Below, piece by piece: positions 52,755 to 64,000 of a DNA stretch of 64,000 nt. The notes beneath the pieces are model-generated. The model was not told the origin of the DNA, did no database searches, and was given only the letters and a program-made list of their open reading frames with translations. Positions within the stretch are counted from its first letter, which is position 1. Each line of letters opens with the position of its first letter. A program made the translations under genes and the position numbers. Source of the DNA: Haloterrigena alkaliphila (GTDB lineage: Archaea; Halobacteriota; Halobacteria; Halobacteriales; Natrialbaceae); contig NZ_CP071462.1 in the NCBI RefSeq assembly GCF_017352155.2, positions 2,480,001 to 2,544,000 on the forward strand. Direction: 5' to 3'.

Positions 52755-53030
52755 CTACCCGTCACTACGATCGTCGTTGGGTGACACTGAGTTGGCCGCC
52801 TCAATGAGCGATTCTCCGAGCGCGCGCATCCCGTCAGCGTCAGTACGCACGGTCACCTGCCGATTCTCACCGTCACGAGCCGCGTTAAGAACAACCGCGA
52901 CGTCTGCCGATGAACTCCCAGCAGGCGCAACTACCCGCGCTTGCGACAACGTTGGTCGAGAATCCTCACTAACGAGTTCGGTCCGGTCAATCACTGACAT
53001 GAGCTTCGGAAGTGTCTCGTCGTAGGTCAC
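52755..53030 (-). CDS. Small hypothetical protein of the recombinase cassette
   Basis: A 91-residue acidic protein with a central hydrophobic stretch (SSADVAVVLNAARD) and no recognised motif. It overlaps the recombinase stop by four bases, so it is the third gene of the AbrB-recombinase operon. Confidence 0.6.
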   Translation of the reverse strand: MTYDETLPKLMSVIDRTELVSEDSRPTLSQARVVAPAGSSSADVAVVLNAARDGENRQVTVRTDADGMRALGESLIEAANSVSPNDDRSDG

Positions 53031-53815
53031 GCTGCCTCACCCCCACTGGTGGCGGACAGATCGTCTCCCTCATAGTCGTCAATTGCGTCGTTCGGGGCGG
53101 CGTCGAGAAGCGCACGCGCGGTACCGTCATCTCGGCATGACCGCGCTCGGTCCTCAACGTGGTTGACCCACCGCTCGATCGCTCCGCGGGAGAGGCCAGT
53201 CTCGTCTGCGATCGAACGATATGACACGCCGTCGGCGCGCATCGCGAGCGCATCCACAACAGTGTCGAACCACTCACTTGCCACCAAATACTCGCGCGCG
53301 TCGTCGAACTCGAGACCAACCGGTGGCCGGGAGTTCCACATTGCTCGCTGTTCGCGGTCGTTCACGGCCTCACGAGCCTTCCTGATCTCCTCGCGTTTGA
53401 TCGCAGTCTCGACCGTACGGCGAACACCGTGCTCCATACTGTCGACATTAACGTCTCCAGCGACGAACGCGAACTCGGCGCCGCCCGAGGCAGCTGCACG
53501 CCGCCATTCCGCGAAAAAGTCGTCGCGGGCCAGTCGGGAGTCGTCCCAGGCGACCACGTGGTCGTACTCTCCAGTTCGCACCCGATCAATCGCGTTCAGG
53601 ATCTCGTCGTTATCGTCAATTCTCGAGTCATCCTTGTCCCGTGATAGTATGCTAAATCCGGTGTGGACACCTAGGTCGACGACATCGTATTCATCGGCAA
53701 GATCGCTCGCGAGCTCAGGTACCTGTTTGCGCTGGAGGCGGAGGCTGGCACCATCCTCGTCGCCTTGTGATCGTCGAATGACCGCGAGCGCCTTGCTGGT
53801 GGTAGCGTCACTCAT
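53027..53815 (-). CDS. Serine recombinase (resolvase family)
   Basis: A 262-residue protein. The catalytic Ser16 lies in AVIRRSQGDEDGASL, followed by AWDDSRLARDD, the resolvase Arg region. A C-terminal helix-turn-helix (SYRSIADETGLSRGAIERW) binds DNA. ATG 53815 is used; the longer frame covers the AbrB gene. It probably inverts or excises DNA. Confidence 0.85.
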   Translation of the reverse strand: MSDATTSKALAVIRRSQGDEDGASLRLQRKQVPELASDLADEYDVVDLGVHTGFSILSRDKDDSRIDDNDEILNAIDRVRTGEYDHVVAWDDSRLARDDFFAEWRRAAASGGAEFAFVAGDVNVDSMEHGVRRTVETAIKREEIRKAREAVNDREQRAMWNSRPPVGLEFDDAREYLVASEWFDTVVDALAMRADGVSYRSIADETGLSRGAIERWVNHVEDRARSCRDDGTARALLDAAPNDAIDDYEGDDLSATSGGEAA

Positions 53816-53996
53816 CGGTGATTGTGATTTCGAGTGTGTTCCCGCTCTTGATGTTCCACTCAACACGGGCTCCCGCGAGGTCCATCGCCTCGGCGATGCC
53901 CTTAGGAACAGTCGTTCGGTACTGCTCAACAGTTCGGTCTTCACCGTCGGAGTTGGTGGTGGTACTCGTGGTCTTCGTAACGGTCGTCTTGGGCAT
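53808..53996 (-). CDS. AbrB/MazE-like swapped-hairpin protein
   Basis: A 62-residue protein with VEQYRTTVPKGIAEAMDLAG, the SpoVT-AbrB fold, preceded by a Thr-rich arm. It overlaps the recombinase start by eight bases and lies next to twin palindromes at 54003 and 54027. Likely a repressor of its own operon, or an antitoxin. Confidence 0.75.
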   Translation of the reverse strand: MPKTTVTKTTSTTTNSDGEDRTVEQYRTTVPKGIAEAMDLAGARVEWNIKSGNTLEITITDE

Positions 53997-56767: not shown

Positions 56768-57619
56768 ATGAGCGCAAGAGTGGCCAGTTTCCTCGATAAA
56801 GGAGGAACAGGAAAGACCACCAGTATCGCACATCTCGGCGTCGCACTTTCTGAGCAAGGACACGACGTCCTGCTCATCGATCTTGCCGGTAAACAGGGAG
56901 ACCTCGCAAAATCATTCGGCGTCTGGCAGGGCACACAGGCCGCCATCGAGAACGACGACGCCTGGCCGAACATCTCGACAGTCTTCGACGACGCCTGGGA
57001 GACGATCGTCGAAAAGCTCGGCGACGAGGCTGTTGAGGAACTCATCGTGCAGACCGACGAGGGCGTCGATCTAATCCCGGCACATCCTGGACTGGATACG
57101 CTTGACGCGGAACTTGCGAACATCGACGATGCTTCCGACCGGTACTCCCGGTTCAAGCAATTCCTTGACGACTACATTGACCCGCTTGGCTACGACGCCG
57201 TACTGATCGACCTGCCAGGAATGACGACGAACGTGACCTACAACGGACTCTGGGCAGCACAGAACGTGCTCGCCCCCGTCGAAATGGGACCGTTCGAGGC
57301 CGAACAAGTTGGCGCGTTACGTGACGATCTCGCGAAGGTCGAGGCCAACTTCAACATCAATGTCGACTTGGCGATGGTCCTCCCGAACAAAGTTGACTCA
57401 CGTACGAAACTCGCTGGCGAGTATCTTGATGCCTATCGCGAGGAGTACCCTAGAGCAATCGCGCCAAAGTATGTTCCCTCTTCGCAAGACATCCGGAACG
57501 CAACCGAGCAGGGACAGTCAATCTTTGCGCTGGACAATCCGAGTGGAACAGCCCGTAAAGCACGTGACGCATATCGTACCAACGCTGAAGCGCTCATAGA
57601 ACGCGTCAGTGGTAACTAA
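56768..57619 (+). CDS. parA: ParA-family partition ATPase
   Basis: A 283-residue P-loop ATPase. The Walker A is KGGTGKTT (11-18), with LLIDLAGKQGDLAKSF and VLIDLPGMTTN as the deviant switch regions. It segregates plasmids or integrated elements with its downstream partner, two bases later. Start at ATG 56768. Confidence 0.9.
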   Translation: MSARVASFLDKGGTGKTTSIAHLGVALSEQGHDVLLIDLAGKQGDLAKSFGVWQGTQAAIENDDAWPNISTVFDDAWETIVEKLGDEAVEELIVQTDEGVDLIPAHPGLDTLDAELANIDDASDRYSRFKQFLDDYIDPLGYDAVLIDLPGMTTNVTYNGLWAAQNVLAPVEMGPFEAEQVGALRDDLAKVEANFNINVDLAMVLPNKVDSRTKLAGEYLDAYREEYPRAIAPKYVPSSQDIRNATEQGQSIFALDNPSGTARKARDAYRTNAEALIERVSGN

Positions 57620-57621
57620 CC

Positions 57622-58002
57622 ATGGATGACGAAATTGAAGAGCTGAAACAGCAGACCAGCCAAGGAGACCGATTGGACGAAGTGAGTGCAGAACAGAAAC
57701 GGAATGACCTCAAAACCGCGATTCTTGAAGAACTGGAGAAAATCGACGAAGGAGATCAGCAGAAGGTCGTCAGTGTCTGGGACGGGCCAATGGCAGCATT
57801 AGTTCGTGCTCTCGAGAACCATCCCGAGCATCTGGATGATGTCGGTCATCGTCTTCAGGACGAGCTCGATGTCGACCAGGAGGACGTTGATCGGAGCGAG
57901 GTTATTCGGCTTGCGCTTCGGCTTGGACTTGGAACCGCCGCACCGGAGGCTATGAAAGCGACGCGCGAGGCGGTCAGCGATAAGGCGACAAAAAACCTAT
58001 AG
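57622..58002 (+). CDS. Small ParA partner (ParB-like, ribbon-helix-helix end)
   Basis: A 126-residue acidic protein with an N-terminal coiled coil (MDDEIEELKQQTSQG) and a C-terminal DRSEVIRLALRLGLG helix pair like ribbon-helix-helix DNA-binding proteins. Two bases after parA and next to the CCTATAG repeats, it is the best candidate for centromere binding. The family is not certain. Confidence 0.6.
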   Translation: MDDEIEELKQQTSQGDRLDEVSAEQKRNDLKTAILEELEKIDEGDQQKVVSVWDGPMAALVRALENHPEHLDDVGHRLQDELDVDQEDVDRSEVIRLALRLGLGTAAPEAMKATREAVSDKATKNL

Positions 58003-59200: not shown

Positions 59201-60358
59201 TCACATTGATTCTTGAACGAATTCGGGTGTGACCCGCTCTTGGTTTTCCTCAACAGCAGAGTCCAATACGCGGCTACAGATAGCAAGGGCTTGGCGAACG
59301 TTACCCTGTGAACGTTGTAGGATCACATCCAACGCTTCATCAGTAAACGGGTCGATCGAAGAAGTTTCGGTCGGCCCATTGCGTTCTCGACTGAGGTAGT
59401 CTGATACCAGGTCGTTCAGATGCTCGTTTGTGAGGGGTTTCAGAGCGACCTCCTCGCCGATCCGCTCGCTAAAAGCATGATATTCACTCATGACGTCTTG
59501 CCAGACCTCGGGAGCACAGCCAAACAACATACACAACCCGGAACTATTCTGGTCCATCAGGTGTCGAATACTGTTGAGCGTGGCCTGCTCATTCTTTGGG
59601 CTGAGACGTGCGATACTCTCGAACTCGTCGACGAAAACGAATACGCCAGTGTAACCGAGTTCGAGTAGCATATTCTTGAAAGCGGTGAACGCCCGGACGC
59701 CCATCGTATCGTCATCGAGTGCGCTGTGGATTTCCATCTCCTTGCGCTGCTCATACCGGATACCCTCTGCGGTCAACCACTGCCAAGCATAGAGGTTGGT
59801 GTCTTCGTACACCATGTGTACGATCGCACGAGCAAAGTCGGCAAAGTGAGTCACATCGCTTAACCGTCGAACCGCCTCCGGGACGATCTCAGAGAGAAGG
59901 ACGTCTCCCTCATCGATGAGCGATTTCATTGCGCTCGCGCTAATTGGATTCGCATCTGTGACGTCACGAGCAACCGAGGCGAGGTACTCGTAGGCCAACT
60001 CTTGGACTCGATTGAAACCTAGGTCGTACACGAACTCATGATAGATGTCGAGAAAGCCCTCTCCCGGTTGAGCGACGTACCCAACGACGACATCGTCCCG
60101 GTCCCGTAACAGAGAGCGGGTATATTTGAGCGTATGCGACTTTCCGTTGCCGTATTTCCCAGTGATAACGAGATGCTTAGACTTTCCAGTCGAAAGCATC
60201 GTGGAGACTGTGGAACTAATCTTTTCGGAGACGTGTTGTTGACCACAGTATATTTCGGGGTCCTCTGCGGGAACCGGGCTGTACGGAAACGGATTGGCCT
60301 CGAGGTCGTACTGTGAGTAATCTTGCTGTTCGTCTGAAATGTCGAATGCGTCGGCCAT
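59201..60358 (-). CDS. AAA/STAND-type ATPase of the Dpd-like operon
   Basis: A 385-residue Orc/Cdc6-like P-loop protein. Walker A is GKYGNGKSH (67-75), Walker B is VFVFVDEFESIARLS, and RSQGNVRQALAICSRVL is a sensor-2-like element. It resembles DUF2791-type ATPases of BREX and related defence systems. Its ATG shares one base with the preceding gene's stop, so it is the last gene of a tight operon. It could be the motor for restriction or modification, with role inferred from context. Confidence 0.7.
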   Translation of the reverse strand: MADAFDISDEQQDYSQYDLEANPFPYSPVPAEDPEIYCGQQHVSEKISSTVSTMLSTGKSKHLVITGKYGNGKSHTLKYTRSLLRDRDDVVVGYVAQPGEGFLDIYHEFVYDLGFNRVQELAYEYLASVARDVTDANPISASAMKSLIDEGDVLLSEIVPEAVRRLSDVTHFADFARAIVHMVYEDTNLYAWQWLTAEGIRYEQRKEMEIHSALDDDTMGVRAFTAFKNMLLELGYTGVFVFVDEFESIARLSPKNEQATLNSIRHLMDQNSSGLCMLFGCAPEVWQDVMSEYHAFSERIGEEVALKPLTNEHLNDLVSDYLSRERNGPTETSSIDPFTDEALDVILQRSQGNVRQALAICSRVLDSAVEENQERVTPEFVQESM

Positions 60359-61254
60359 TATGTATCCTCCTGGTGGAACGTGACGTCGCGGTCGTGGACC
60401 GCGAGGTAGTAGTATTGTTTGTCGTACAATTCAACGCCAGACATCACCTGCTGTGTCGACTGCGACGTGGAGACTAACGTTCCCTCATCTGCCACGGAAA
60501 TCCGCTTGATTCCGAGAGCAGAATCTTTAGCCTCCGTATCCATTGGAGCTCCCGAAAGCTCGAGTTTGCCGACGTTTTGCTGGCAGAGAGCGACTAGTGC
60601 CTCGTCGAAACCCGCACGTGAACATCCAATTCGTTCACAGACTTCCTCCCGAAGTTTCGGTATCGACAGATAGCGCTGTCGTAAATCTACGCCTGCTGTC
60701 TGTTCGAGGTGGTCATAAGCGTCAAGCACCACGAAAGGGAAGTTGTCCGGAATGCTGGATTGGCTGGTCAAATAGTAGCTCCCAGTGAAGGCATTCCGCT
60801 GAACGCGACCTAATCGTTCGGCCCAGTCGCCGACGACCTCTATGCCGGTCTGGTTGAAGGAATAGGGTGTATACTTCTGGTCTTCTTCCAGGCTCTCCAG
60901 AAGGGTATCGAGGTCTGTAGGTTCGAGTCGCTCCAGAACCTCGAGAAATGTTCCGTAGTGGGGGCTACGAGTTGCGAGGATTGAACTCACCTGCTGCCAG
61001 CTCTCATCCCGAATCGCCTCTAAGAAGGCTTCGCCGATAGCGGTGGTCCCGTAATAGGAATCGTCATCTGATTCGCGTTCGTCCAGCAGATCGATTCGTT
61101 TCGCTTCTAGAACCGTTTCTCGCGCTCGCCGATGACTTACATCGAGAGCGGTCTCGAGATCCTCTGTCGTTTTCTCGTCGTCTTCACAGGCATGTGTGAG
61201 TTCAACCAAACGACTCAGTGTGACTGGACGGATCGTCGCTCGTTCGTCACTCAT
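60358..61254 (-). CDS. Winged-helix-like protein of the Dpd-like operon (DpdG candidate)
   Basis: A 298-residue protein. The N-terminus holds a helix-turn-helix-like part (LETALDVSHRRARETVLEAK) and a second one lies near residue 205 (CERIGCSRAGFDEALVALC). Four-base overlap with the transglycosylase and one-base overlap with the ATPase show that the genes work together. Size and layout recall DpdG, a protein of the Dpd cluster, but that identity is tentative. Confidence 0.6.
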   Translation of the reverse strand: MSDERATIRPVTLSRLVELTHACEDDEKTTEDLETALDVSHRRARETVLEAKRIDLLDERESDDDSYYGTTAIGEAFLEAIRDESWQQVSSILATRSPHYGTFLEVLERLEPTDLDTLLESLEEDQKYTPYSFNQTGIEVVGDWAERLGRVQRNAFTGSYYLTSQSSIPDNFPFVVLDAYDHLEQTAGVDLRQRYLSIPKLREEVCERIGCSRAGFDEALVALCQQNVGKLELSGAPMDTEAKDSALGIKRISVADEGTLVSTSQSTQQVMSGVELYDKQYYYLAVHDRDVTFHQEDT

Positions 61255-62285
61255 GTGAGCCTCCTCACTTGCTGTTTTGCGGTCTCATAGGCCCGTCTAG
61301 TAACTTCGTTGCCCTGGAAGCGAAGATCGAGATAATTCTCGACATCCCGATCAGACTCAGCTATGTATTTGAATCGTCGAAGCTCCGTTGCAAGCGCCCA
61401 GAGGTTATGCTGAGTGAGTGCAGTTCGGTCTTCCCGAATGTCTTCTAAACTCCGTTGACCACAGATCGGACAGGGGCAAGGCAACCGATCTAAGTCCTCG
61501 ATGTTGTGGAGTTCTTCCCCTCCAAAACCAGGTATCAAGTAATTACGATTGCCGGCACTTCTGATGAACGCCGACGAGTCGAAACTATCGACACCGAGAT
61601 AAAGTAAAAGTGGTTGATAGACTAATCCGCCGAGACCATAGACGTGTAGATGCTTCTCCGTCGCATTTCTTGCAGCAAGTACCAACTTTGTCACCTTTTT
61701 GTAATCTGTCCGGATCGGCACCATGCTCCCGAGTGCATATCCATCAAAATCTCCGCGGTTCTCTAGGTACTGGATATTGTTACGAATCGTTTCTGGATCG
61801 TACCCGTGAACGCTCGCGAAGAGTAGAGCATCACCAGTATGGAGATCACTTGCCTCGAGAGCAAACTCGATGCTTCGGTCGATACGCCGTTGATTCTCTG
61901 CTGCACGGTTTTCTCTGGACAAAGGGATGTCAATTGTCCCGTGTATGTCGCTATCTAATTTCTGTTGAGTTTTGATCGTCTTTTCCGGCGTAGTGTCGAT
62001 CTCCTGTTCCGAAAAATCGAATCCACCGCTATCAGCGAAGATGATGGTGTCTTCTGGAACGTCCATCTCTTCGCGGAGGGCCACACCATTCGTTAGCCGA
62101 TTCCACATCGGGTCCCGGTTCCGTATCGATCGAGCGTTAATCATCGCCGCGGAAAACTCCGGGATAGTGCCGACGTACTTGGGAGTGTTATCACTCGATC
62201 GCTTCCCCACGTTCCTAACTGGGAAGAGAACTGGTGTATCCAGTTCTCCGTGGGGAAGATCGAGTTTCCGTTGTCTGTACAGCAT
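61251..62285 (-). CDS. tRNA-guanine transglycosylase paralogue, DpdA-like
   Basis: A 344-residue TGT-fold protein. Both catalytic aspartates are present: Asp85 in FADSGGFDF (general base) and Asp236 in GVDSFDSS (nucleophile). The zinc site is Cys270, Cys272, Cys275 (CPCPIC) and His293. It lacks the PUA-type domain of archaeal tRNA TGT and lies with a helix-turn-helix protein and an ATPase, so insertion of a 7-deazaguanine into DNA (DpdA) is more likely than tRNA modification. Which base and substrate is not shown. Confidence 0.78.
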   Translation of the reverse strand: MLYRQRKLDLPHGELDTPVLFPVRNVGKRSSDNTPKYVGTIPEFSAAMINARSIRNRDPMWNRLTNGVALREEMDVPEDTIIFADSGGFDFSEQEIDTTPEKTIKTQQKLDSDIHGTIDIPLSRENRAAENQRRIDRSIEFALEASDLHTGDALLFASVHGYDPETIRNNIQYLENRGDFDGYALGSMVPIRTDYKKVTKLVLAARNATEKHLHVYGLGGLVYQPLLLYLGVDSFDSSAFIRSAGNRNYLIPGFGGEELHNIEDLDRLPCPCPICGQRSLEDIREDRTALTQHNLWALATELRRFKYIAESDRDVENYLDLRFQGNEVTRRAYETAKQQVRRLT

Positions 62286-62382
62286 CCCTCCCGCTCGGAT
62301 ATGCTGTTATCTTACTTAGATAATGGGGCGATAGACGATCAGAAGAGGTGAAGTATAGAGGTTCGCCTTAGTAATTTCTCGT

Positions 62383-64000
62383 CTAATACTTCTCGAAGGC
62401 CATCTGAGTAGGTTCCTCTTCTACACGACGACAGAGGCCCTCAATCGCTTCAGGTTCCAGTGATTCGACACTGTCTATACGGTGTGCGAAATTCTTCATA
62501 TAGTGTCCTTTCAACCCTACTACGATTGTGCCGTGGTTTTTCGCGTCTTCTGTGCGGGCAGGCACTGACACGATATTATCGAACTGGTCGTCGACGAGTT
62601 CCCGGTTGAAGACGACTCCAATACGATCAGAACGAACGTCCTGGACCATATTATCGATGTCAATGCTGGTGTAGTAATCCTTCCCGAGAGTGAAGAAGAC
62701 TACATCGTAGTCTGACTCGTTCAGCACCTGCTCTAAGTCGGCCTGAATGCTGAGTTGTTTAGATCGCTCCCTGATGTCGGCAACGCCCATCGAGCTGAAC
62801 GTCACTTCGTATGGCGGCAACGGTTCGTCCTCGGAAACGAGGCCGAAGCCTGCACTTATGAAGTACCGCTCGACATCGTGACCTTCTCCTTTGAGCCGTC
62901 TAACCGCTTCCTTCACGAACTCCTGCTGTCGGCCCGTGTAGAGATCCTTGGCGTTGATTGCAGGAACATTATCGCGCTCCAAGAGCTCTTCTCTCGAGAA
63001 TTGGAGCGTCTCTTTATCATCGAAGACGGGTGCACCTTCGGGGATGTCCTTCGAGCCAGAACATTGGTCGATAACCAAAATGTCGAGCCCATCCTGGACG
63101 TTGATTTTGGGTGGGTGAGGCAGGAAGTCATCCCCAGCTATGTAATTCTCTCCGCACGCTTCCAAAGCATTCTGGCGCAGTTTCGATGGATCTTGGAACG
63201 TCTGGATTGTGCAGTTACTTTCCTCCACGGCATCTACGATGTGCTCGTCGATTTCTCCGTCAGGTGTGTGGAGGAACACCTTCTGGTATCGCTCTGCTTG
63301 CTGACCAAGGTTTTCAGCCATGCGACTCCGGGCAAGCGAAACGCCGGTGGGGGTCTTGTCCCACCACTCTCGTACACCGCCGGCGTCCAAAACGCCAACT
63401 TCGGCAACTGGGAGATCATGCACCTGCTGCCAGAAGTCAGGATGCTCGGCTCGAAGGTAGTCCTCGATAGTTTCGTAGCCGTTCAGAGATGCCGTACCTC
63501 GAGTTCCGATGAGGATTTTCGGTAGCTCGTCGGTGAATTCGTCGTAGAACCGTCGGGTGTTATGGAATCCACGTCGACGGTTGCGGTCGTTACCACGGAA
63601 GATACAGACCTCAATACTGTTCTCGGTACAGATCGAGCAATCGCACTTCTCCCAAGGTCGGTTTTGCAGTGTACGCTGGTACTCTTCTAAGAGGTCTTCG
63701 TCGCCGATCCACGTCGCGTAATCGCGAACGACGGTCCAAATCGCGTCATAAGTAGTTTCAGGATCGTCGTTTTCAAGGATGGTAGTCATACGCGGGAAAG
63801 GCTCGAACTCCTGCTGTGCGACGGTTAGTAGATCAGAATACTCTTCGAAGCTAACCGGGTCCTCGGGATCGTCTTTCCGAAGAAGCTTGACCAGCTTTCC
63901 TCGAAGATTGTCGCTGAAACTCGCTTGTAGCTCTCGGGCGTACTCGAAATCGTCTCTAAAAGCGGTTTCGACTTCTTGGAGTAGCGAAGCGTCGTATTGC
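62383..64000 (-). CDS. Second TGT paralogue fused to a DUF6884-type domain (5' end beyond window)
   Basis: The open frame runs through the right edge without a stop, so the ATG at 63789 is probably internal; at least 538 residues are visible. A TGT-type zinc site, KCDCSICTENS followed by GFHNTRRFYDEF, lies near the left part of the visible sequence, so the catalytic barrel should be off the edge. The C-terminal 250 residues carry LVIDQCSGSKDIPEG, NAKDLYTGRQQEFV and FISAGFGLVSEDEPLPPYEV, a DUF6884-like (YaaA-related) domain. It lies 97 bases before the DpdA-like gene in the same orientation. Confidence 0.7.
   Translation of the reverse strand, partial: QYDASLLQEVETAFRDDFEYARELQASFSDNLRGKLVKLLRKDDPEDPVSFEEYSDLLTVAQQEFEPFPRMTTILENDDPETTYDAIWTVVRDYATWIGDEDLLEEYQRTLQNRPWEKCDCSICTENSIEVCIFRGNDRNRRRGFHNTRRFYDEFTDELPKILIGTRGTASLNGYETIEDYLRAEHPDFWQQVHDLPVAEVGVLDAGGVREWWDKTPTGVSLARSRMAENLGQQAERYQKVFLHTPDGEIDEHIVDAVEESNCTIQTFQDPSKLRQNALEACGENYIAGDDFLPHPPKINVQDGLDILVIDQCSGSKDIPEGAPVFDDKETLQFSREELLERDNVPAINAKDLYTGRQQEFVKEAVRRLKGEGHDVERYFISAGFGLVSEDEPLPPYEVTFSSMGVADIRERSKQLSIQADLEQVLNESDYDVVFFTLGKDYYTSIDIDNMVQDVRSDRIGVVFNRELVDDQFDNIVSVPARTEDAKNHGTIVVGLKGHYMKNFAHRIDSVESLEPEAIEGLCRRVEEEPTQMAFEKY

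Follow-up and report, generated by a model that had tools for sequence, protein, structure and literature searches.

A haloarchaeal gene cassette with two transglycosylases, candidate writer of a mobile Dpd-type island

Among the systems closest to the locus described here are BRIGADE and the bacterial Dpd island. BRIGADE, which a recent preprint describes from halophilic archaea only, combines a 7-deazaguanine cluster with a pair of YprA helicases and a nuclease, typically PLD but otherwise PD-(D/E)XK; it is presented as a hybrid of Dpd and ARMADA features, and DruE and DpdJ are counted as members of the YprA family (Bell et al, 2025; PMC12458937). The bacterial Dpd island consists of a writer, dpdA-C, and a restriction part, dpdD-K, and dpd islands have been surveyed across bacteria with GATOR-GC (PMC11888242). 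The ATPase activity of bacterial DpdB has been tied to insertion (PMC12839542, citing Gedara et al, 2023). The tRNA-guanine transglycosylases (TGTs) are active as dimers, and the Haloarcula vallismortis virus HVTV-1 carries about 30% of its G as dPreQ1 though it has no DpdA; the same source places a Haloarcula vallismortis DpdA (EMA11768) on contig AOLQ01000002 (Hutinet et al, 2019; PMC6884629). Here we describe a locus of Haloterrigena alkaliphila in a stretch of 64,000 nucleotides (contig NZ_CP071462.1, positions 2,480,001 to 2,544,000, forward strand), hereafter the window. It holds a cassette of four genes encoding a DpdA, a second and shorter TGT (sTGT), a winged-helix protein (P2) and an AAA ATPase (P1). 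In our reading, to which we give a probability of roughly 0.7, this cassette is the modifying (writer) half of a restriction-modification island of Dpd type that is mobile among haloarchaea and belongs to the BRIGADE kind.

Coordinates are in window numbering, also past the window end; positions in regions L004 and L005 are converted by adding 58000 and 78000, respectively. G-numbers denote genomes of the searched set, with G000 the window's own genome.

Two transglycosylases and two partner proteins

All four genes lie on the minus strand. The sequence-only reading of the window had reported four leftward open reading frames (ORFs) at 59201-64000, three of which overlap by 1-4 bases, and we find the same arrangement in the window ORFs: P1 (59201-60358, 385 aa) and P2 (60358-61254, 298 aa) overlap by 1 base, P2 and sTGT (61251-62285, 344 aa) by 4 bases, and 97 bases separate the end of the DpdA gene from the start of sTGT. 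The DpdA gene spans 62383-65286 and is cut by the end of the window, in which it shows as an open ORF at 62383-63999; the whole gene (L004:4383-7286) encodes 967 aa.

The cut fourth ORF had been described as a TGT-type protein fused to a DUF6884-like domain, and both parts hold. It matched DUF6884 at 9e-8 and the PADLOC DpdA model at 8.1e-22, and the completed protein reaches 271.5 bits with the NCBIfam DpdA model, above the curated equivalog cut-off of 200, and 8.3e-73 with PADLOC. It matches the solved DNA-guanine transglycosylase 7ui4 at 1.2e-39. The catalytic Asp89 and Asp337 are conserved in 40/40 aligned rows, and the Zn ligands Cys548, Cys550, Cys553 and His575 (CxCxxC plus His) in all 39 rows that reach them. 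In a tree of 45 of the 132 TGT proteins collected, it clusters with bacterial DpdA, apart from the archaeosine TGT. By these comparisons the fourth protein is a DpdA, a DNA-guanine transglycosylase that is predicted to insert preQ0 into DNA; the equivalog match, the 7ui4 match and the tree grouping also back the proposal, made from the window alone, of a Dpd-like 7-deazaguanine modification locus. The C-terminal DUF6884 domain contains Cys742, and PADLOC DpdC models match residues 737-841, the best at 7.3e-8 and the others more weakly. Judged by length, this domain is within DpdA in 19 of 36 loci and not in the other 17, and at 14 of those 17 it is a separate frame alongside the shorter DpdA.

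The short protein sTGT has the TGT fold (Pfam TGT, 1.1e-28). Both catalytic Asp residues and the zinc site that had been noticed in it are present as Asp85, Asp236, Cys270, Cys272, Cys275 and His293, and all six are invariant in 46/46 aligned orthologues. Its nearest solved relative is the archaeosine TGT (arcTGT) structure 1iq8 (6.1e-21), and its AlphaFold model (pLDDT 86.4) aligns with residues 17-357 of the 577 in 1iq8 (Z 37.1, root-mean-square deviation (rmsd) 2.4, 328 aligned). As modelled, sTGT is an entire TGT catalytic domain without the C-terminal part of arcTGT, about 220 residues; that C-terminal region is tRNA-binding. The best NCBIfam model for sTGT is TgtA, at 143.1 bits, far below its cut-off of 350. 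The sequence-only reading had made its case depend on whether the TGT proteins group with tRNA enzymes. For DpdA the tree is clear, as described above. sTGT forms one clade of its own (support 100/100) outside the TgtA clade (97/98), and is placed on the DpdA side with 94/82, under the support level that we starred; a larger clade joining sTGT with TgtA and ArcS was not rejected (P of the approximately unbiased test, p-AU, 0.226), so that its deeper placement may be with DpdA or with TgtA and ArcS. The 50 matches listed for the sTGT model do not include the DpdA structure 7ui4; this does not argue against kinship. We rejected sTGT as the host's archaeosine enzyme: TgtA- and ArcS-like genes are elsewhere in the genome. 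A single lineage of sTGT and the second TGTs of bacteria was also rejected (p-AU 0.015), with long branches in play.

P1, described earlier as an AAA ATPase, is one of the BrxC/BrxD type (Pfam BrxC_BrxD 3.8e-17, PADLOC BrxD 5e-12). It has a Walker A motif, GKYGNGKS, and a Walker B motif, DEFE, and residues G70, G72-S74 and D244-E247 are invariant in 24 aligned orthologues. No match at 0.01 was obtained for P1 in a PDB profile search. P2 had been called winged-helix-like. Family scans with Pfam, PADLOC and NCBIfam gave no match to it, and a PDB profile search gave a single match, only at 0.16. Its AlphaFold model (pLDDT 87.5) has a MarR-like winged helix-turn-helix at residues 12-84 (Z 13.1, rmsd 1.4, 73 aligned), in agreement with that description; the fold comparison is informative chiefly for residues 11-84.

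We searched 391 genomes of the class for the cassette. With a limit of 1e-30, sTGT gave 57 matches, and after removal of a 577-aa frame that is TgtA-like by size (G308, 35% identity) 56 orthologues remained, 53-100% identical to the query. With a limit of 1e-15, DpdA gave 61 matches, of which five hits to the DUF6884 part only (G050, G113, G279, G298 and G334) were dropped, leaving 56. The two proteins occur together in 55 genomes and either one in 57 (Fisher p = 6e-65, kinship ignored). Each of the two exceptions is damaged: G034, which is decayed, has sTGT only, with P2 broken off, and G166 has only a DpdA with internal stop codons, whose DUF6884 part stops 230 bases short of a contig end that falls where sTGT is expected. 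With sTGT orthologues in 56 of 391 genomes and its catalytic and zinc residues invariant in every aligned one, the locus is far beyond chance.

Neighbourhoods were compared for 46 of the 56 sTGT genomes in 47 regions (G263 twice), mostly over 8 kb downstream and in some cases ended by contig ends; G171, G196, G341, G384, G301, G112, G348, G290, G387 and G284 were left out. By positions extrapolated from tblastn, sTGT and P2 are at most 7 bases apart in 47/47 regions, with a 4-base overlap in 37, and P2 and P1 at most 44 bases apart in 46. DpdA is present in 40 of the regions, and in 34 of these it shares the strand and lies no more than about 0.75 kb upstream. In the other seven it is on another contig (G111, G087, G104), farther along the same contig (G038, G061, G331) or absent (G034). 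Protein distances correlate between the four proteins over 36 loci that have them all (G263a and G131 dropped), with Spearman coefficients of 0.61-0.81: 0.76-0.81 within sTGT, P2 and P1 and 0.61-0.69 with DpdA. DpdA, sTGT, P2 and P1 are thus inherited together as a cassette. A scan of a contig collection with two strict peptide patterns found 34 sTGT loci, all with haloarchaeal record titles.

Several observations on individual genomes and viruses stand beside these counts. One contig, G263:C3, holds two whole or partial cassettes, one with a shortened DpdA and P1. G002 has two further TGT-domain frames beside its TgtA-like and ArcS-like ones (C1:2473500-2474768, 681 aa; C1:2653517-2654350, 421 aa). 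Of the searches of virus collections, one gave no confirmed match and another a single phage record at 31%. Five Sulfolobus virus records match sTGT at 24% identity, and the STSV1 and STSV2 proteins annotated as queuine tRNA-ribosyltransferase (NC_006268.1:19340-19834, NC_020077.1:14608-15102) match at 24% over half of its length. In the literature searched, which covered neither subscription papers nor supplements, we found no paper describing the second TGT.

QueC, DpdB and DpdC, which the sequence-only reading would have sought past position 64,000, fared differently from one another. The DndB/DpdB family PF14072 (E ≤ 0.001) was found in none of 20 cassette genomes, the window's included, and in 2 of 14 named genomes that served as control. 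DpdC appears only as the weakly similar domain fused to DpdA. QueC is encoded elsewhere: the genome has one strong match, about 322 kb from the cassette; in Haloferax volcanii, the control of this search, QueC is present. Among the 47 regions, ORFs resembling queD, queE and queC, so named from the look of their sequences, lie within 14 kb of the cassette in 19, 18 and 17. By the same kind of look, G061 (L111:7850-10715), G111, G038, G331 and G225 have sTGT-P2-P1 beside queD-queE-queC-like ORFs and a preQ0-transporter-like protein.

From the gene content and the conserved active sites we infer the following course of events. DpdA and sTGT would replace guanine in DNA with preQ0 supplied by the host archaeosine pathway. 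Our first guess, made tentatively, is a heteromer of these two enzymes, with two parallel writers a close second; we prefer the heteromer because TGTs are active as dimers. P2, through its winged helix, and P1, as an ATPase, may choose the site and load the enzyme in place of DpdB. The DUF6884 domain of DpdA would then probably convert dPreQ0 to dADG. The mark would shield the host genome, and a DpdH-like ATPase, two YprA-type helicases and a PLD-like protein, all encoded farther along the island, would attack unmarked DNA.

The island past the window, its putative restriction genes and its mobility

From the window alone the gene set had seemed compact. It is not: minus-strand genes run on to 87852, 23.9 kb beyond the window, and a compact four-gene system was therefore rejected. 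The apparent compactness arose because the window edge cut the island. The sequence-only reading had named unrelated plasmid genes as neighbours among the findings that would speak against it; the genes past 64,000 resemble Dpd- or BRIGADE-type restriction genes. The PLD-like protein (69102-71078, minus strand, 658 aa) matches PLDc_2 at 2.3e-5. It is followed by two YprA-type helicases in tandem on the minus strand, J1 (71071-76530, 1842 aa) and J2 (76548-82076, 1819 aa), which are 37% identical to each other. J1 and J2 match DruE models at 1.8e-35 and 5e-31 and DpdJ models at 3.8e-34 and 4.6e-29; there are also weak DpdF matches (1.8e-6 and 9.1e-6), and an MrfA Zn-binding domain is seen in J2 only, below its cut-off. 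Beyond a 278-aa protein (82079-82915, minus strand) lies the DpdH-like ATPase (82917-85994, minus strand, 1025 aa; NCBIfam DpdH 1.4e-11, PADLOC 1.2e-6), and then two minus-strand genes for proteins of no family, of 309 aa (85991-86920) and 311 aa (86917-87852). None of DpdD, E, G, I or K was among the PADLOC matches listed (for the helicases, the best 25 of 51 and of 47). P2-P1 as a diverged copy of the pair formed by the 309-aa and DpdH-like proteins was rejected by profile comparison, with probabilities of 2-5%.

The J1-type and DpdH-like genes are almost confined to genomes that have the cassette. At E limits of 1e-100 for the J1-type helicase and 1e-20 for the DpdH-like ATPase, on which the counts depend, and with two candidates scored per genome, the J1-type helicase occurs in 38 of the 391 genomes, all 38 with the cassette, and the DpdH-like ATPase in 39, of which 38 have the cassette. 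The two lists comprise the same 38 cassette genomes. In 32 of these the DpdH-like gene is within 35 kb of sTGT, in 4 it is farther away on the same contig and in 2 it is on another contig. The restriction module depends on the cassette. The exception, G003 (C1:543582-546656), has a DpdH-like ATPase at 82% and neither cassette nor J1-type helicase at the limits used.

Other effector modules adjoin the cassette in some of the genomes that lack the J1/DpdH-type module; among these, proteins were scanned in G110, G061, G026, G131 and G336. G110 (L044:10501-18589, L043:1967-3952) has a split DpdJ-like helicase (1.3e-55), a PD-(D/E)XK protein (1.5e-14), a protein of 710 aa that weakly matches the MrfA Zn-binding domain and one of 1136 aa, the G061 relative of which has a weak AAA match; this is perhaps a BRIGADE Type I module. 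G026 (L050:2499-6347, L049:15827-18719) has a Druantia/DpdJ-like helicase (1.3e-36), proteins of 1254 and about 340 aa, and a third, of 631 aa, whose C-terminus is PglZ-like (3.6e-7, residues 500-625 only). G131 (L102:98-10628) has a similar set, in which the relative of about 1255 aa matches AAA at 0.007 and the relative of the PglZ-like protein has no Pfam match at 0.01. A cross of Dpd-type marking with BREX-type effectors is possible in G026 and G131. G356 and G131 share ORF families with the modules of G110 and G026. Because different modules adjoin it in G110 and G026, the cassette looks portable across effectors.

The island itself moves. Its limits, taken from alignments with G162 and G005, are 59126-88887, about 29.8 kb. 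By blastn it is 95-99% identical in nucleotides to regions of G320, G162, G179 and G005, all of other genera (five genera with the host's own), with G162 and G179 of other families, whereas the TgtA of G005 is only 81% identical in protein to that of the host. The alignment with G179 extends over 55460-89218 and that with G320 starts at 57790 and continues to the end of the 20 kb compared. The PLD-like gene and the DpdA gene flank a gene for a protein with DnaJ and DUF5797 domains (65541-66725, L004:7541-8725, minus strand). This gene occurs in G000 and G320, is absent where G162, G179 and G005 align, their only break (65479/65481 to 66839/66842), and was rejected as a part of the system. In the gap 66726-69101 between minus-strand genes, a small ORF is encoded on the plus strand (67104-67496, L004:9104-9496, 130 aa); its family, of about 117-130 aa, is near the cassette in 15 of the 47 regions, on either strand.

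The plus strand at the far end of the island encodes a CARF/Csa3-type regulator (88172-88873, L005:10172-10873; 3.3e-87), followed by a tRNA-Arg (89144-89218). Through this regulator the island may be connected with CRISPR-type second messengers. CARF/Csa3-like ORFs are near 8 of the 47 regions, and a csa3 is on pBNX82-4; Haloferax alexandrinus BNX82 is a carrier of the cassette. An att repeat of the tRNA-Arg was sought in 40001-98000, where just one 14-base match was found outside the tRNA. To the left of the island there are, as named by eye, an ORF resembling a serine recombinase (53027-53944) and a ParA-like ORF (56768-57619).

Alternative readings of the cassette

The case for a writer of a restriction-modification island has points against it. 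Several matches are weak by the standards of their own models: the DpdH-like protein reaches 43.6 bits against the NCBI cut-off of 450, J2 reaches 79.7 against 800 with DpdJ, the PLD match is just under the Pfam cut-off (24.7 versus 27 bits), and the likeness of the DUF6884 domain to DpdC is modest (7e-8), with no solved structure found for that part in a PDB profile search. The roles of P1 and P2 follow from position only, since no homology to the 309-aa and DpdH-like proteins is detectable. The co-occurrence counts ignore the relatedness of the genomes. In four genomes (G062, G225, G111 and G038) the trio sTGT-P2-P1 has no adjoining DpdA, and in G336 another DpdA-like gene (51%, G336:C4:74521-76647) lies away from the cassette, with one sTGT at 1e-30. 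The DpdA of phage 9g works in E. coli without the TGT of that host (PMC6884629); DpdA therefore need not have a TGT partner. Modified-nucleoside data were found in the literature searched for the DNA of the virus HVTV-1 and none for haloarchaeal cell DNA.

Some of these points bear on how the two TGTs share the work. DpdA may write one mark alone, and sTGT-P2-P1 may be an independent DNA-TGT machine for other sites or the other strand, an arrangement that we consider doubtful, yet nearly as plausible as the heteromer and equally at home in a restriction-modification island. It would account for the trio being the tightest unit, both in its abutting or overlapping genes and in its distance correlations, for a DpdA that can lie elsewhere and for complete active sites in both enzymes. 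The presence of both TGTs in 55 of the 57 genomes that have either one would be unexpected for independent writers. A more distant departure, which we consider improbable, keeps sTGT on RNA altogether: as a paralogue of the archaeosine TGT it would act on tRNA or another RNA, for example as an RNA-side sensor or in compensation for the drain on preQ0, and only DpdA would touch DNA. The nearest solved relative of sTGT is indeed an RNA enzyme, the arcTGT 1iq8, its best NCBIfam model is TgtA, though at 143 of 350 bits, and its union with TgtA and ArcS was not rejected. sTGT nevertheless lacks the C-terminal arcTGT region and forms its own fully supported clade apart from the TgtA clade, which is itself supported; TgtA- and ArcS-like genes are present separately in the host, and the link of sTGT to DpdA is near-constant.

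The restriction genes could instead be mere neighbours on the island, with the cassette a stand-alone DNA modification trait or a modifier of viral DNA. Eighteen of the 56 sTGT genomes are without the J1/DpdH-type module at the limits used, most of them without any other module identified, and HVTV-1 is heavily modified without a DpdA of its own (PMC6884629). The dependence of the module speaks the other way, no J1-type helicase being found apart from the cassette (38/38) and a DpdH-like ATPase only once (38/39); G110 and G026 carry other helicase modules, with which G356 and G131 share ORF families. On balance we consider a stand-alone trait very improbable. Least probable of all is that sTGT erases or proofreads, exchanging 7-deazaguanine back to guanine so that the mark stays sparse or certain sites stay free of it. 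Base exchange is what TGTs catalyse, and a second TGT that looks active beside a writer is compatible with such a role, but incorporation of 7-deazapurines by TGTs is usually held to be irreversible, and no sequence feature points to erasing.

Relation to known systems

Three features of the locus are new: the constant second TGT, a restriction module that depends on the cassette and, in some genomes, other effector modules beside it. What a survey of helicases had entered as a '7-deazaguanine derivative biosynthetic cluster' becomes a writer of four defined genes whose division of labour can be tested, separated from effectors that seem exchangeable. More speculatively, and with the odds against it, DpdA and sTGT might be the first two-subunit DNA transglycosylase, steered by a winged-helix protein and an AAA ATPase, and encoded by a portable cassette that several restriction machines adopted independently (twin YprA helicases with a PLD-like protein; a split DpdJ-like helicase with PD-(D/E)XK; a Druantia-like helicase with a PglZ-like protein); the HVTV-1 mark would then perhaps be host-written. 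The Haloarcula vallismortis contig AOLQ01000002, named by Hutinet et al for its DpdA, carries sTGT, and G051:C2 carries all four cassette genes and the restriction module; with this cassette on the named contig the origin of the HVTV-1 base is testable.

The island resembles BRIGADE in its haloarchaeal host, its two YprA-type helicases and its 7-deazaguanine genes, here DpdA and sTGT, and tentatively in its PLD-like protein; by gene content it fits that system. The main text of the BRIGADE preprint (PMC12458937) has no occurrence of TGT or transglycosylase, and its passages on the system, supplements excluded, describe no paired TGTs, no P2 or P1 genes and no exchange of effectors. Type II BRIGADE pairs are called 'nearly identical' there, whereas J1 and J2 are 37% identical. 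BREX-related capture (BRC; PMC12839542) likewise combines a TGT homologue with BREX-type ATPases, and the PglZ-like C-terminus in G026 is a further similarity; the BRC text centres on HerA/FtsK and GNAT. In catalytic fold sTGT agrees with TgtA (1iq8), and it keeps the two Asp residues and the zinc site CxCxxC...H. It differs in missing about 220 C-terminal residues, in forming a separate clade and in being linked to DpdA, patchily distributed and horizontally moved.

With the bacterial Dpd island as described in PMC11888242 the locus shares DpdA and, at weak similarity, a DpdC-like domain and DpdH- and DpdJ-like proteins, besides a PLD-like protein, preQ0 genes near some copies and horizontal spread. 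It differs in the second TGT and in the BrxD-like ATPase and winged-helix partner, with no DpdB found, and the DpdC-like domain is fused to DpdA or encoded beside it. The scores of the helicases with Druantia (DruE) models are no lower than those with DpdJ models. Paired TGTs are also seen in bacteria, on plasmids of Paenibacillus sp. 37 (pART37), Nostoc sp. NIES-3756 and Picosynechococcus sp. PCC 73109, which encode DpdA and a nearby second TGT of 307-315 aa. pART37 also has, as annotated, queE, a 6-carboxytetrahydropterin synthase, queC, a VUT transporter, dpdJ and dpdK. On the two cyanobacterial plasmids the gene of the second TGT has overlaps with two genes for DEAD/DEAH helicases. The helicase or NTPase partners differ from the haloarchaeal ones, and in the two plasmid DpdAs scanned the DpdC/DUF6884-like part is N-terminal, whereas in the haloarchaeal protein it is C-terminal. 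Since these bacterial second TGTs do not group with sTGT, the pairing may have arisen more than once, and it may help to explain how DNA transglycosylases acquire their specificity. Where the best-known bacterial system has a single TGT, the haloarchaeal cassette almost always has two.

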